DNA of 64,000 nucleotides from Halalkalibacter oceani (GTDB lineage: Bacteria; Bacillota; Bacilli; Bacillales; Bacillaceae_D): the NCBI RefSeq assembly GCF_023715605.1, contig NZ_JAMBOL010000001.1:124001-188000 (forward strand), read 5' to 3'. Numbering within the stretch: the stretch's first letter is position 1; every line of letters begins with the position of its first letter. The notes below the pieces were generated by a model, which was not told the DNA's origin, ran no database searches, and worked only from the letters and a program-made list of their open reading frames with translations. This document shows positions 57,282-60,184 of this stretch, in pieces. The position numbers and the translations under genes are program-made.

Positions 57282-58530
57282 TTTCTGGATTATCGTCGGC
57301 CATACGTATACAAAGAAGCTGCTTACGAAAACCTTTCTCGTTACGACGGCGATTACGCTTCTCTTCGTCCTCTTTTTCATGAATATGGAGCGGATTTTTA
57401 CGATGTTCGAGCAGGATGCGGAGCAGGCAGCCACTCATATTATTGTCGTCGATGAAACGGATGAGCTGATTGAGCCGTTAAGGGACCAGCTGCAGCCGTT
57501 TACCGAGCGGATTATTTTGGCCGGAGAAGCGGAGACGCTGGAAGAAGCCCGTCAGAGCGTCGAAGCAGGAGACTATGATGCGGCTCTGAGGATCTCTTAT
57601 GATCAACAGGGGCAGCTCGAAGGAGAGTATTTCTCTGATTCTTTAACACAAACGTTCGCGCCCAACCAGCTGCAGCAGGCTTTGCAGCATGTGAAGGAGA
57701 CGCGCTTGACGGTCGAACTTGGCCTCAGCCCGGTCGAACTGGAGCGGATCTACCAGCCGATCTCCTTTGAACTGACGACGATCAGTGAAACGGCTAAATC
57801 AGAAAGTGAATTAATGCAGGCGCAGATGATCGTCTATGTGCTGTTATTTGTTATTTATTTTACGGTGCTGTTATTTGGAAACATGATCGCGACGGAGGTT
57901 GTCACCGAAAAATCATCACGTGTGATGGAAATTCTTGTATCGACGGTTTCACCGATCACGCAAATGTTCGGTAAGATCGTCGGCATTGGCTTGCTGGCGC
58001 TGACGCAATATGGTTTGTTGTTCCTGGTCGGTGCTGTCAGTTTGATGATGCAGGCCGACGGAAGCTCATTGGCGGGTGCTTTTTTGTCAGAGGAGCTGCC
58101 GCTTGATTTACTCGGTTATGCCATCCTGTTCTTTTTATTAGGCTATTTCCTTTATGCGACGCTGTCAGCGACACTCGGTTCAATTGTCAGCCGGGTGGAG
58201 GATGTCAATCAAGTGCTCGGGCCGGTCAACTTCCTCGTGATCGGCGCCTTTTTCCTGGCGATGTTCGGGCTGAACGCGCCTGAGTCGACGGTCGTGACCG
58301 TGGCGTCCTTCATTCCGTTTTTTACACCGATGCTGATGTTTCTCCGTGTCGGCATGCTGCCTGTTCCGCTCTGGGAGGTCATTTTGGCCCTTGTAATTCT
58401 TCTTGGTACCATTGCGGTGCTGGCGGCGATTGGAGGCCGTATTTTTAAAGGGGGCGTGCTGATGTATGGCAAGAGTTCGGCACTTAAGGATTTAAAAAAG
58501 GCGTTTCAGCTGTCGAAGCAGGAACGGTAA
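57274..58530 (+). CDS. yhaP: ABC transporter permease (NatB/YhaP type)
   Basis: This 418-residue permease has one N-terminal membrane segment, an extracellular domain of about 140 residues, and then about five membrane segments. GNMIATEVVTEKSSRVMEILVSTVSP, FMVGKIVG-like FGKIVGIGLLALTQYG and the PFFTPMLMFLR segment are typical of the NatB/YhaP (ABC-2) family. It works with the overlapping ATPase gene, possibly to export Na+ or a drug. In Bacillus subtilis yhaO and yhaN follow; here a different set of genes does. Confidence 0.92.
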   Translation: MRNFWIIVGHTYTKKLLTKTFLVTTAITLLFVLFFMNMERIFTMFEQDAEQAATHIIVVDETDELIEPLRDQLQPFTERIILAGEAETLEEARQSVEAGDYDAALRISYDQQGQLEGEYFSDSLTQTFAPNQLQQALQHVKETRLTVELGLSPVELERIYQPISFELTTISETAKSESELMQAQMIVYVLLFVIYFTVLLFGNMIATEVVTEKSSRVMEILVSTVSPITQMFGKIVGIGLLALTQYGLLFLVGAVSLMMQADGSSLAGAFLSEELPLDLLGYAILFFLLGYFLYATLSATLGSIVSRVEDVNQVLGPVNFLVIGAFFLAMFGLNAPESTVVTVASFIPFFTPMLMFLRVGMLPVPLWEVILALVILLGTIAVLAAIGGRIFKGGVLMYGKSSALKDLKKAFQLSKQER

Positions 58531-58544
58531 AAGAGAGCCTCCAT

Positions 58545-58573
58545 TTGGTGGCAGGCTGTTTGTATGGTAAACT
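58545..58573 (+). promoter_or_regulatory. Promoter of the arrest-peptide/yidC2 operon
   Basis: TTGGTG (58545-58550) and TAAACT (58568-58573) are 17 bases apart, with a TGG extension before the -10. Transcription would begin about 20 bases before the ribosome site of the small ORF. Confidence 0.6.
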
Positions 58574-58600
58574 AATGAATGAAAGAGGAGGTGGGTAAGG

Positions 58601-58870
58601 ATGCTGGAAGTGATTTCGGAGATGATGATGCTTTGGTACAGTGTCATTCTAACAGTATGGCTCGTCACAGCTTTTGCAAAAGCGAATATCGTACTGATGG
58701 AATGGGAGCTCCGGATGAGTTCACGGAGACAATGGCTGAAGCTGGAAGGCGGTCAGCCTCCAGGGATGCTCCTTATCCCTTCCCAACGAAGCAGCTATCG
58801 GCCGAAGATTCCGAACCGGGCCGATCACCATAAATCAGATGAGGAAGATCCTTCCCTTGTTGTTTGCTGA
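58601..58870 (+). CDS. Putative MifM-like translation-arrest peptide upstream of yidC2
   Basis: This 89-residue ORF has AGGAGGTGGG before ATG 58601. It has one N-terminal membrane segment (about residues 9-33, MLWYSVILTVWLVTAFAKAN), a basic/Pro-rich tail, and ends with SDEEDPSLVVC; Asp80-Glu-Glu-Asp83 are encoded at 58838-58849. Bacillus subtilis MifM has the same size, topology, DEED cluster near its C terminus and position before a yidC gene, and it stalls ribosomes there to induce yidC2. The rest of the sequence is not clearly similar. The last codons form half of a hairpin that hides the next ribosome site. Function is inferred. Confidence 0.75.
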   Translation: MLEVISEMMMLWYSVILTVWLVTAFAKANIVLMEWELRMSSRRQWLKLEGGQPPGMLLIPSQRSSYRPKIPNRADHHKSDEEDPSLVVC

Positions 58871-58893
58871 CATTAGTGAAAACAACAAGGAGG
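58855..58893 (+). promoter_or_regulatory. Hairpin sequestering the yidC2 Shine-Dalgarno sequence
   Basis: CCTTGTTGTTT (58855-58865, last codons of the small ORF) is perfectly complementary to AAACAACAAGG (58880-58890), whose end is the AAGG of the ribosome site AAGGAGG (58887-58893). A ribosome halted at the DEED codons (58838-58849) would cover bases to about 58864 and melt the stem, freeing the site for ATG 58901. Confidence 0.78.
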
Positions 58894-58900
58894 ATTATGA

Positions 58901-59662
58901 ATGAAAAAACGATTACTGCTAGTGATGATGATTGGGCTGGTCGCCCTTTTAAGTGCGTGTGGAGCGGCGAACCAGGCTCCGATTACGATGGAGACGGAAG
59001 GATTTTGGAATCACTTCTTTGTCTTCCCGATGTCGTGGTTATTGATTCAAGTCGCGGAGCTGTTTGATGGCAGCTATGGCTTCTCAATTATCGTTGTCAC
59101 GATTGCGATTCGGCTGTTATTGCTGCCGCTCGTATTGAAACAACAGAAGAGCGCGCGGGCGATGCAGGCGTTGCGTCCGGAAATGGAAGCCTTGCAGAAA
59201 AAGTTCAAAGCCGGTGATAAAGATCCAAAGAAGCAGCAGGAGATGCAAAAGGAACTGATGGGTCTCTACCAGACACATGGCGTCAATCCGCTTGCCGGCT
59301 GTCTGCCGCTCTTTATTCAAATGCCGGTTCTGATGGCGTTTTACTTTGCAATTATGCGGACGGAGCAAATTGCGCTCCATACGTTTCTATGGTTTGACTT
59401 AGGACAGCCTGATCCTTTTTACTTGCTGCCGCTCATTGCCGGCTTTACGACATTTTTGCAAGTGAAAATGACCGCTACAGGGCTGCAGGATCAGATGAAA
59501 GTGATGATGTATATTATGCCTGTCATGATTATCGTCGCCGGTATTACACTTCCCTCGGCCTTATCGCTTTATTGGGTAGTGGGCAACATCTTCATGATTA
59601 TTCAAACATATTTTACCGTGACAAGATTTGAGCAGAAGCGGGCGGAAGTAAGCAACTCATAA
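58901..59662 (+). CDS. yidC2: YidC/Oxa1-family membrane insertase, second-copy type
   Basis: This 253-residue insertase has a lipoprotein signal (LLSAC, Cys20) and five membrane segments. The conserved hydrophilic-groove arginine is Arg71 in [17 protein letters not shown], and [25 protein letters not shown] and [14 protein letters not shown] are family motifs. It inserts membrane proteins alone or with Sec. The gene is not next to rnpA/rpmH, so it is probably the inducible paralogue (YqjG/YidC2 role), in line with the arrest-peptide-like ORF directly upstream. Confidence 0.93.
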
Positions 59663-59720: not shown

Positions 59721-59812
59721 GTTATTTGCGCCCAAACCGGAAAAGTGTGCCATAGACATTCACCTATTTTGCCTTTGCTGAATAAGGTAGAGTGAAGAGG
59801 AGGGAAGAGCAA

Positions 59813-60184
59813 ATGACGAGTCAGCTTGAACAAATCAAAATGCAATGCCAGCAATGTATCAACCAGGCGGTCCATGTTGAGGTCAATGGTCAGCATGGCT
59901 ATAACGGAGTCGTTGAACACGTTGATGATGAATATGTTTATTTAATGGTCCCTGTTGATGAAAACGGACAATACCTTGACCTGGCAACGATGAATATGAA
60001 TGCGATGCACCCAAATGGAGCAAACCAGGCTGTTCAGCCGATGATGAGACAGCAGATGGGAGCGCGTTATCCGTACAATCCATACTTTTCTCCGTATCCG
60101 TTTTACCCATACCCGCCGCGCCCTTTTGGCTGGAATCGCCTCGTCCTCCCATTAGCGGCCCTAACGGCTCTGGCGATTCTTTAA
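59813..60184 (+). CDS. Tyr/Pro-rich hypothetical protein with Sm-like N terminus
   Basis: This 123-residue protein has an N-terminal part with CQQC and a beta-rich stretch AVHVEVNGQHGYNGVVEHVD and DEYVYLMVPVDENG that recalls small Sm-like barrels. A Met/Asn/Gln-rich linker follows, then a Tyr/Pro-rich stretch (YPYNPYFSPYPFYPYPPRP) and a hydrophobic end (LVLPLAALTALAIL). Tyr-rich tails of this kind occur in spore coat proteins. ATG 59813 follows GAGGAGGG. I do not know its function. Confidence 0.72.
   Translation: MTSQLEQIKMQCQQCINQAVHVEVNGQHGYNGVVEHVDDEYVYLMVPVDENGQYLDLATMNMNAMHPNGANQAVQPMMRQQMGARYPYNPYFSPYPFYPYPPRPFGWNRLVLPLAALTALAIL

Follow-up and report, generated by a model that had tools for sequence, protein, structure and literature searches.

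The closest described counterpart of the locus reported here is MifM (YqzJ) of Bacillus subtilis, a 95-codon leader 5' of yidC2 (yqjG). As set out in excerpts of the primary literature, MifM carries the motif RIxxWIxxxxxMNxxxxDEED (PMC7897499) and stalls the ribosome at codons 89-92, starting at the last D of DEED (PMC6037786, PMC4423224); its N81, eight residues from D89, sits at the tunnel constriction, and the B. subtilis ribosomal protein L22 has F85 and M90 (PMC4423224). Two further yidC leaders are described in similar terms: CliM of the Clostridia, with a membrane segment, a stem-loop on the yidC initiation site and experimentally shown YidC monitoring (PMC13183943), and ApcA of the Actinobacteria, with a membrane segment and a C-terminal arrest motif (PMC7897499). 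Neither the K-Y-x-I-W motif of CliM (uC_KYxIW; PMC10987492) nor the R-A-P-G motif of ApcA is present in the leader considered below. In a survey of 592 Firmicutes genomes, Fujiwara 2024 reports 572 leaders of the MifM class, delineated by clustering with MMseqs2 and by an acidic region within residues 70-100 (PMC10987492).

The DNA analysed here, referred to as the window, is a stretch of 64,000 nucleotides from Halalkalibacter oceani, in which a small ORF directly precedes a second yidC gene.

A conserved leader ORF 5' of yidC2

The leader and its target comprise the following features:

58561..58573, + strand: candidate extended -10 promoter element TGTATGGTAAACT (by eye)
58586..58594, + strand: leader ribosome site AGGAGGTGG (from sequence; an SD-like sequence also lies 5' of relatives' leaders)
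58601..58870, + strand: leader ORF of 89 aa, a candidate YidC-monitoring arrest peptide (sequence, homologues, dN/dS)
58625..58693, + strand: putative N-terminal membrane segment, about codons 9-31 (hydropathy; limits approximate)
58799..58828, + strand: codons 67-76, RPKIPNRADH, candidate arrest motif (conservation in the family alignment)
58838..58849, + strand: DEED acidic run, codons 80-83, presumed stall region (D80 at least 90% conserved)
58901..59662, + strand: second YidC insertase gene, yidC2, of 253 aa, with a lipoprotein-like signal by eye (PF02096, E 1.7e-55)

The frame of this ORF, its DEED cluster and its PSLVVC tail all read in the sequence as a preliminary description of the locus had claimed, and hydropathy windows of 1.5-1.8 agree with the single N-terminal membrane segment proposed there, the topology of which is probably N-out/C-in. 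That description also gave the leader its own promoter and ribosome site. The ribosome site stands, but the promoter is weaker, since a strict sigma-70 scan of 58400-59000 returned no promoter and the element listed above was picked out by eye; an element resembling TGTATGGTAAACT or TGTGATAAAAT was likewise seen by eye at a similar position 5' of the 21 family leaders examined. The proposed genomic context, an ABC-2 permease, tentatively yhaP, before the pair and a response regulator and histidine kinase, tentatively cssRS, after it, was borne out. The order leader, yidC2, small ORF, response regulator, histidine kinase and yhaM-like gene recurs in all 13 named family-leader loci (at L051 the small ORF is visible only as a short match), and in the compared stretches of these 13 loci the upstream ABC pair was seen at L043, L049 and L050 only. 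A 130-aa ORF between yidC2 and the two-component genes of the window (59792-60184) is matched at the same position in 13/13 named loci and is without a Pfam or NCBIfam match.

The leader peptide is identical over its whole length (100%) in another genome named Halalkalibacter oceani, the compared stretch of which showed no ABC pair ahead of the leader, and homologues were found in 11 of the 13 genomes of the genus and, by profile, in 38 of the 41 family genomes. It is under purifying selection, with dN/dS of 0.08-0.25 in all 11 relative pairs tested and low values over the whole ORF; because dS is about 1 or more in every pair, these ratios are rough. P68 and K69 do not vary among 26 family leader sequences, in which W12, P71, D75 and D80 each reach at least 90% conservation, and in a wider set of 25 rows K69 and D75 are invariant and P71 again reaches at least 90%. 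Like MifM-class leaders, the ORF lies directly 5' of a secondary yidC, and at least 30 soluble residues come after its N-terminal localisation segment, as judged by hydropathy only. The five-residue charge centred on residue 81 is -0.8, within the acidic region of residues 70-100 by which that class is recognised (threshold -0.3; computed with our own formula and not with the idpr package). Searches with the peptide matched no family in Pfam (E up to 0.001) or NCBIfam (E up to 0.1) and nothing in a plasmid collection, and Rfam gave no match over 58300-59000 at E up to 1.

The distribution of conservation along the peptide bears on what it is for. The membrane segment and an EWELR region are conserved within the genus and dN/dS is low over the entire frame, which would also suit a functional small membrane protein, such as a partner of YidC2, that is co-transcribed by chance and whose stoichiometry is tuned by the hairpin described below. 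However, the most conserved part across the family is the C-terminal block, PKIP-x3-D, the peptide after DEED varies across the family while the RNA pairing there is retained, and other yidC2 genes have leaders of the same layout whose membrane segments are dissimilar. We therefore regard a small-protein function as highly improbable.

A hairpin over the yidC2 ribosome site

The last codons of the leader pair with the ribosome site of yidC2 through the following elements:

58847..58852, + strand: outer left arm, codons 83-84 (minimum-free-energy fold)
58855..58865, + strand: left arm of the hairpin (11-bp pairing, fold, co-variation)
58880..58890, + strand: right arm of the hairpin (11-bp pairing, fold, co-variation)
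58887..58893, + strand: yidC2 Shine-Dalgarno AAGGAGG, masked by the hairpin (sequence, fold)
58891..58896, + strand: outer right arm (minimum-free-energy fold)

This hairpin is real. The minimum-free-energy fold of 58836-58915 reaches -21.7 kcal/mol (z -4.27), a value that 0 of 200 shuffles equalled. The 11-bp pairing between the two inner arms is as first described, but the accompanying claim that half of the Shine-Dalgarno (SD) sequence is masked understated the structure, as the fold adds pairing between the two outer arms and the entire AAGGAGG is thereby masked. The preliminary description had also treated conservation of the peptide tail and of the pairing in close relatives as a test of its reading, and of these the DEED block and the pairing are conserved, whereas the amino acids that end the peptide after DEED are variable.

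Evidence that the two arms evolve together came from pairing each left arm with right arms from other loci. At 45 window-type loci (a term used here for every YidC in the comparison that neither belongs to the YqjG clade nor was taken for a SpoIIIJ first copy), arms of the same locus gave a mean of -16.0 kcal/mol, compared to -10.2 kcal/mol for swapped arms, and 0 of 5000 permutations were as good, in a test whose statistics ignore shared ancestry. It used 53 of 63 rows, seven with identical arms and three overlapping the yidC start having been dropped, and at L116 the left arm was placed manually. In the MifM group (n=8), 11 of 5000 permutations reached the own-arm mean. The own right arm outranked all others at only 15 of the 45 window-type loci, because the arms of close relatives and the shared SD fit too, and pairing is weak at L017 (-8.7 kcal/mol), L069 (-6.2), L073 and L074 (both -9.6) and L076 (-6.7). 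Across 29 family loci (29 of 37 rows, eight identical ones dropped), all nine of helix columns 3-11 displayed at least two Watson-Crick pair types, with the left-arm register picked to maximise pairing.

The position of the hairpin is also tied to the acidic run. At 32 loci (29 window-type and three MifM), 16.2 +/- 3.1 nt separate the first acidic codon from the left arm, a spacing that fits ribosome stalling on the acidic residues and is a little steadier than the one measured from the stop (sd 4.4); these loci have stem scores of at least 18 and duplicates removed, so that weak stems are absent from the comparison.

The best reading of these data, and one we consider well supported and highly probable, is a regulated arrest of the MifM type through which the yidC2 ribosome site becomes accessible. 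The N-terminal segment of the nascent chain would be a substrate of YidC. When total YidC activity, mainly that of SpoIIIJ, is sufficient, insertion would pull on the chain, translation would proceed to the stop codon and the hairpin would re-form over the yidC2 site. When insertion is slow, RPKIP-x3-D in the tunnel and DEED at the peptidyl-transferase centre would hold the ribosome at about codons 83-86, a position predicted by analogy with codons 89-92 of MifM, and the stalled ribosome would cover the left arm, free the SD and allow the spare YidC to be made. With D83 in the P-site (58847), the leading edge of the ribosome lies at about 58862. A ribosome in this position would remove most of the 11-bp left arm and occupy the outer left arm, and a stall one to three codons past D83 would cover all of the left arm. 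With D83 at the peptidyl-transferase centre, D75 is eight residues off, the same spacing as that between N81 and D89 of MifM, and the Pro-Lys pair is further out; we infer both the tunnel placement of D75 and Pro-Lys and the extent of ribosome coverage from geometry.

Part of this arrangement could also arise from simple translational coupling, in which translation or termination of the leader opens the hairpin and yidC2 follows, with no arrest and no sensing. Because the leader stop codon (58868-58870) lies inside the hairpin, termination there would likewise place a ribosome over the left arm, and the leaders of some relatives (L089, L091, L092 and L109) overlap the yidC start. Coupling alone, however, leaves the near-invariant PKIP-x3-D-x4-acidic block, the membrane segment and the steady DEED-to-arm distance unexplained, and we consider it improbable.

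YidC lineages and the leaders that precede them

The genome carries a second YidC copy flanked by rnpA-like and jag-like ORFs, neighbours named by eye that we take to mark this copy as SpoIIIJ. To place the window gene among its homologues, YidC was searched in 81 genomes of the order, none of which had more than two YidC above the cut-off, and the stretches 5' of second copies above the cut-off were read. In a midpoint-rooted FastTree phylogeny of 147 sequences, the YidC2 under MifM control in the B. subtilis genus falls in a YqjG clade with 51 tips, one gene being present twice (support 0.999), and the SpoIIIJ genes together with four others form a clade of 40 (support 0.993). The window yidC2 falls outside both, in a core clade of its own of 50 (support 0.867); the deeper nodes are weak, so the 60 window-type genes are not shown as one clade, and four of them (L089, L091, L092 and L157) lie inside the SpoIIIJ-side clade.

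A leader with a membrane segment and an acidic cluster precedes 58/60 window-type genes, 47/50 YqjG-clade genes and 0/35 SpoIIIJ genes (a set in which 30 are the best-scoring loci of the 81-genome survey, not all of them first copies), and at 29 of the 35 SpoIIIJ genes an rnpA-like ORF takes the leader's place. The two kinds of leader differ in the motif before the acidic run: a K[IVKR][PH]-like motif occurs at 57/60 window-type, 0/50 YqjG-clade and 0/35 SpoIIIJ genes, and W[ILFMP] at 1/60, 39/50 and 0/35, respectively, by patterns that were written after viewing the sequences (K[IVKR][PH], with RNIP also counted at one locus). Most window-type loci were found via the leader itself, a bias from which only the 16 window-type second copies of the 81-genome survey are free. 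In that survey alone, a membrane-plus-acidic leader precedes 16/16 of these copies and the K[IVKR]P-like motif is present at 15/16, while among the YqjG-clade genes the corresponding figures are 38/41 and 0/41, with W[ILFMP] in 30/41. By a scripted check the leader adjoins yidC in 62 of 63 leader loci; at the remaining one, L022, which shares a contig stretch with L053, yidC2 was found by tblastn.

Profile A2 matched 25/397 genomes of the order and 3/398 of the class, profile A3 matched 32/328 genomes of the order, and B. subtilis MifM as query matched 8/328, all of one genus. One of the A2 matches in the order (G232, inside a histidine-kinase-like frame) and at least one of the A3 matches (G063, with no yidC-like ORF in the stretch read) were judged unrelated. 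Short motif matches at two proteobacterial loci (L055 and L056) lie in open frames without a membrane segment and were set aside as chance.

Several loci depart from the common arrangement. The family genomes without a leader match are G005, G010 and G031 (3/41). G005 and G010, both of the genus, have a YqjG-clade yidC2 elsewhere, behind small ORFs resembling veg and sspF by eye; it is preceded by a different leader (L109:995-1354 and L110:951-1325) that carries a KRKESPEDDGDY block and then an end overlapping the yidC start; the yidC frame of L110 is broken in the draft genome. In the reduced genome G031 (L108), yidC2 follows a yhaP-like gene with no leader ORF, and a short inverted repeat, seen by eye at about 1217-1330, stands in place of the leader. 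The leader is therefore dispensable there, which we count against the MifM-like reading. At L093 (G257), the leader is interrupted by an internal stop and lies beside a shortened yidC2 without its middle; the pair seems to be decaying together, which we count in favour of that reading. The leader frame of L116 (G036, listed at 86% completeness) diverges from those of relatives after RPKIPG and loses the acidic run, reflecting either decay or an assembly error. In family f28 (L089, L091 and L092), FRKIPTKE leaders run beyond the SD and overlap the yidC start, so that any hairpin must lie within the leader frame. In G050 and G095 (L171 and L173), the sole YidC match belongs to the YqjG clade and has a leader, with no SpoIIIJ copy by Pfam search.

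Relation to MifM and meaning of the leader class

MifM and the window leader have in common an N-terminal membrane segment, DEED at the C-terminal end, an SD-masking hairpin formed from the last codons and a secondary YidC as target. The host L22 carries F85 and M90, like that of B. subtilis, and about 50 residues separate the membrane segment from DEED, close to the median of 54 given for MifM (PMC10987492). The motifs, in contrast, share DEED alone: RPKIP-x3-D-x4-DEED stands in the window leader where MifM, its letters taken from PDB 3j9w, has RIxxWIxxxxxMNxxxxDEED. The residue pairs important in MifM, R69-I70, W73-I74 and M80-N81, are without clear counterparts, which we count against the MifM-like reading. 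The targets differ as well, since the MifM target is YqjG and the well-supported YqjG clade excludes the window gene. The neighbourhood of yqjG presumably also differs from that of the window locus.

Direct comparison of the peptides revealed little similarity. BLASTP of the window peptide against B. subtilis MifM found none, and a PDB search with profile A2 returned three chance-like matches to the hydrophobic part, MifM being absent. With hhalign, window leaders matched the MifM group at 53% over the N-terminal 45 columns and, in another run, at 88% over the membrane segment only; out-of-family window-type leaders matched MifM at 58% (P 9.8e-5) over 46 C-terminal columns, with RKIP placed on RKV. 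After removal of the membrane segment the values were 38% against MifM (12 columns, at the acidic run) and 19% against YqjG-clade leaders, and both of these soluble-part comparisons exceed all 300 column-shuffled controls. The YqjG-clade leaders of the order, MifM included, typically read W[IL]....KRKESP-DD and resemble window-type leaders in their membrane segment, in basic residues before the acidic run and in their position before yidC2. Whole-profile comparison of window-type with YqjG-clade leaders gave a probability of 87 (P 3.7e-6, 17 columns), compared to 97 (P 2.8e-11, 84 columns) for MifM with YqjG-clade leaders. By these profiles MifM clearly joins the YqjG-clade leaders, and common descent of the window-type and MifM leaders is plausible.

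The preliminary description had called the leader a functional analogue or distant orthologue of MifM. The first half of this proposal is well supported by the anatomy, the conserved block, the co-varying hairpin and the presence of a separate SpoIIIJ-type copy. Orthology is not established, given the empty BLASTP result, the weak profile comparisons and a YidC outside the YqjG clade; with the RIxxWI and MN residues absent, plain orthology to MifM was accordingly lowered in our ranking. Its further suggestion that the arrest motif may be new holds in that RPKIP-x3-D-x4-DEED replaces the MifM motif, but the class is widespread and may lie inside the published MifM cluster. In the available portion of Fujiwara 2024, no mention of a PKIP class or of two YidC lineages was found (PMC10987492). 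Word searches of the literature for MifM, YidC2, alkaliphile arrest peptides and paralogues yielded no such class among the matches listed. A study of two YidC proteins in the alkaliphilic B. pseudofirmus OF4 reportedly exists.

Taken together, these results indicate that the leader very probably works like MifM, pausing its own ribosome to switch on yidC2, and that by sequence its pause signal and its target insertase are of a branch different from MifM's. More tentatively, RPKIP-x3-D-x4-DEED may represent a second arrest class, largely independent of MifM and attached to another YidC lineage, with related species holding either one pair or the other; we view this as a possibility that is on balance doubtful. 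Under this proposal, the invariant Pro-Lys beyond the constriction and the Asp at the constriction would constitute an engagement with the tunnel of the class's own, and two spare-insertase lineages in the Bacillales would be equipped with matching sensors. If this is true, there would be at least two spare YidC lineages in the Bacillales, each with its own class of arrest sensor, and the classes would share the acidic stall site and differ in the motif facing the tunnel. They would then offer a natural comparison for separating the portions of an arrest peptide that hold the ribosome from those that set the force threshold, one regulatory design would have been kept, or re-invented, on different insertase paralogues, and the within-genus swap of one leader-yidC2 pair for the other would be open to study.
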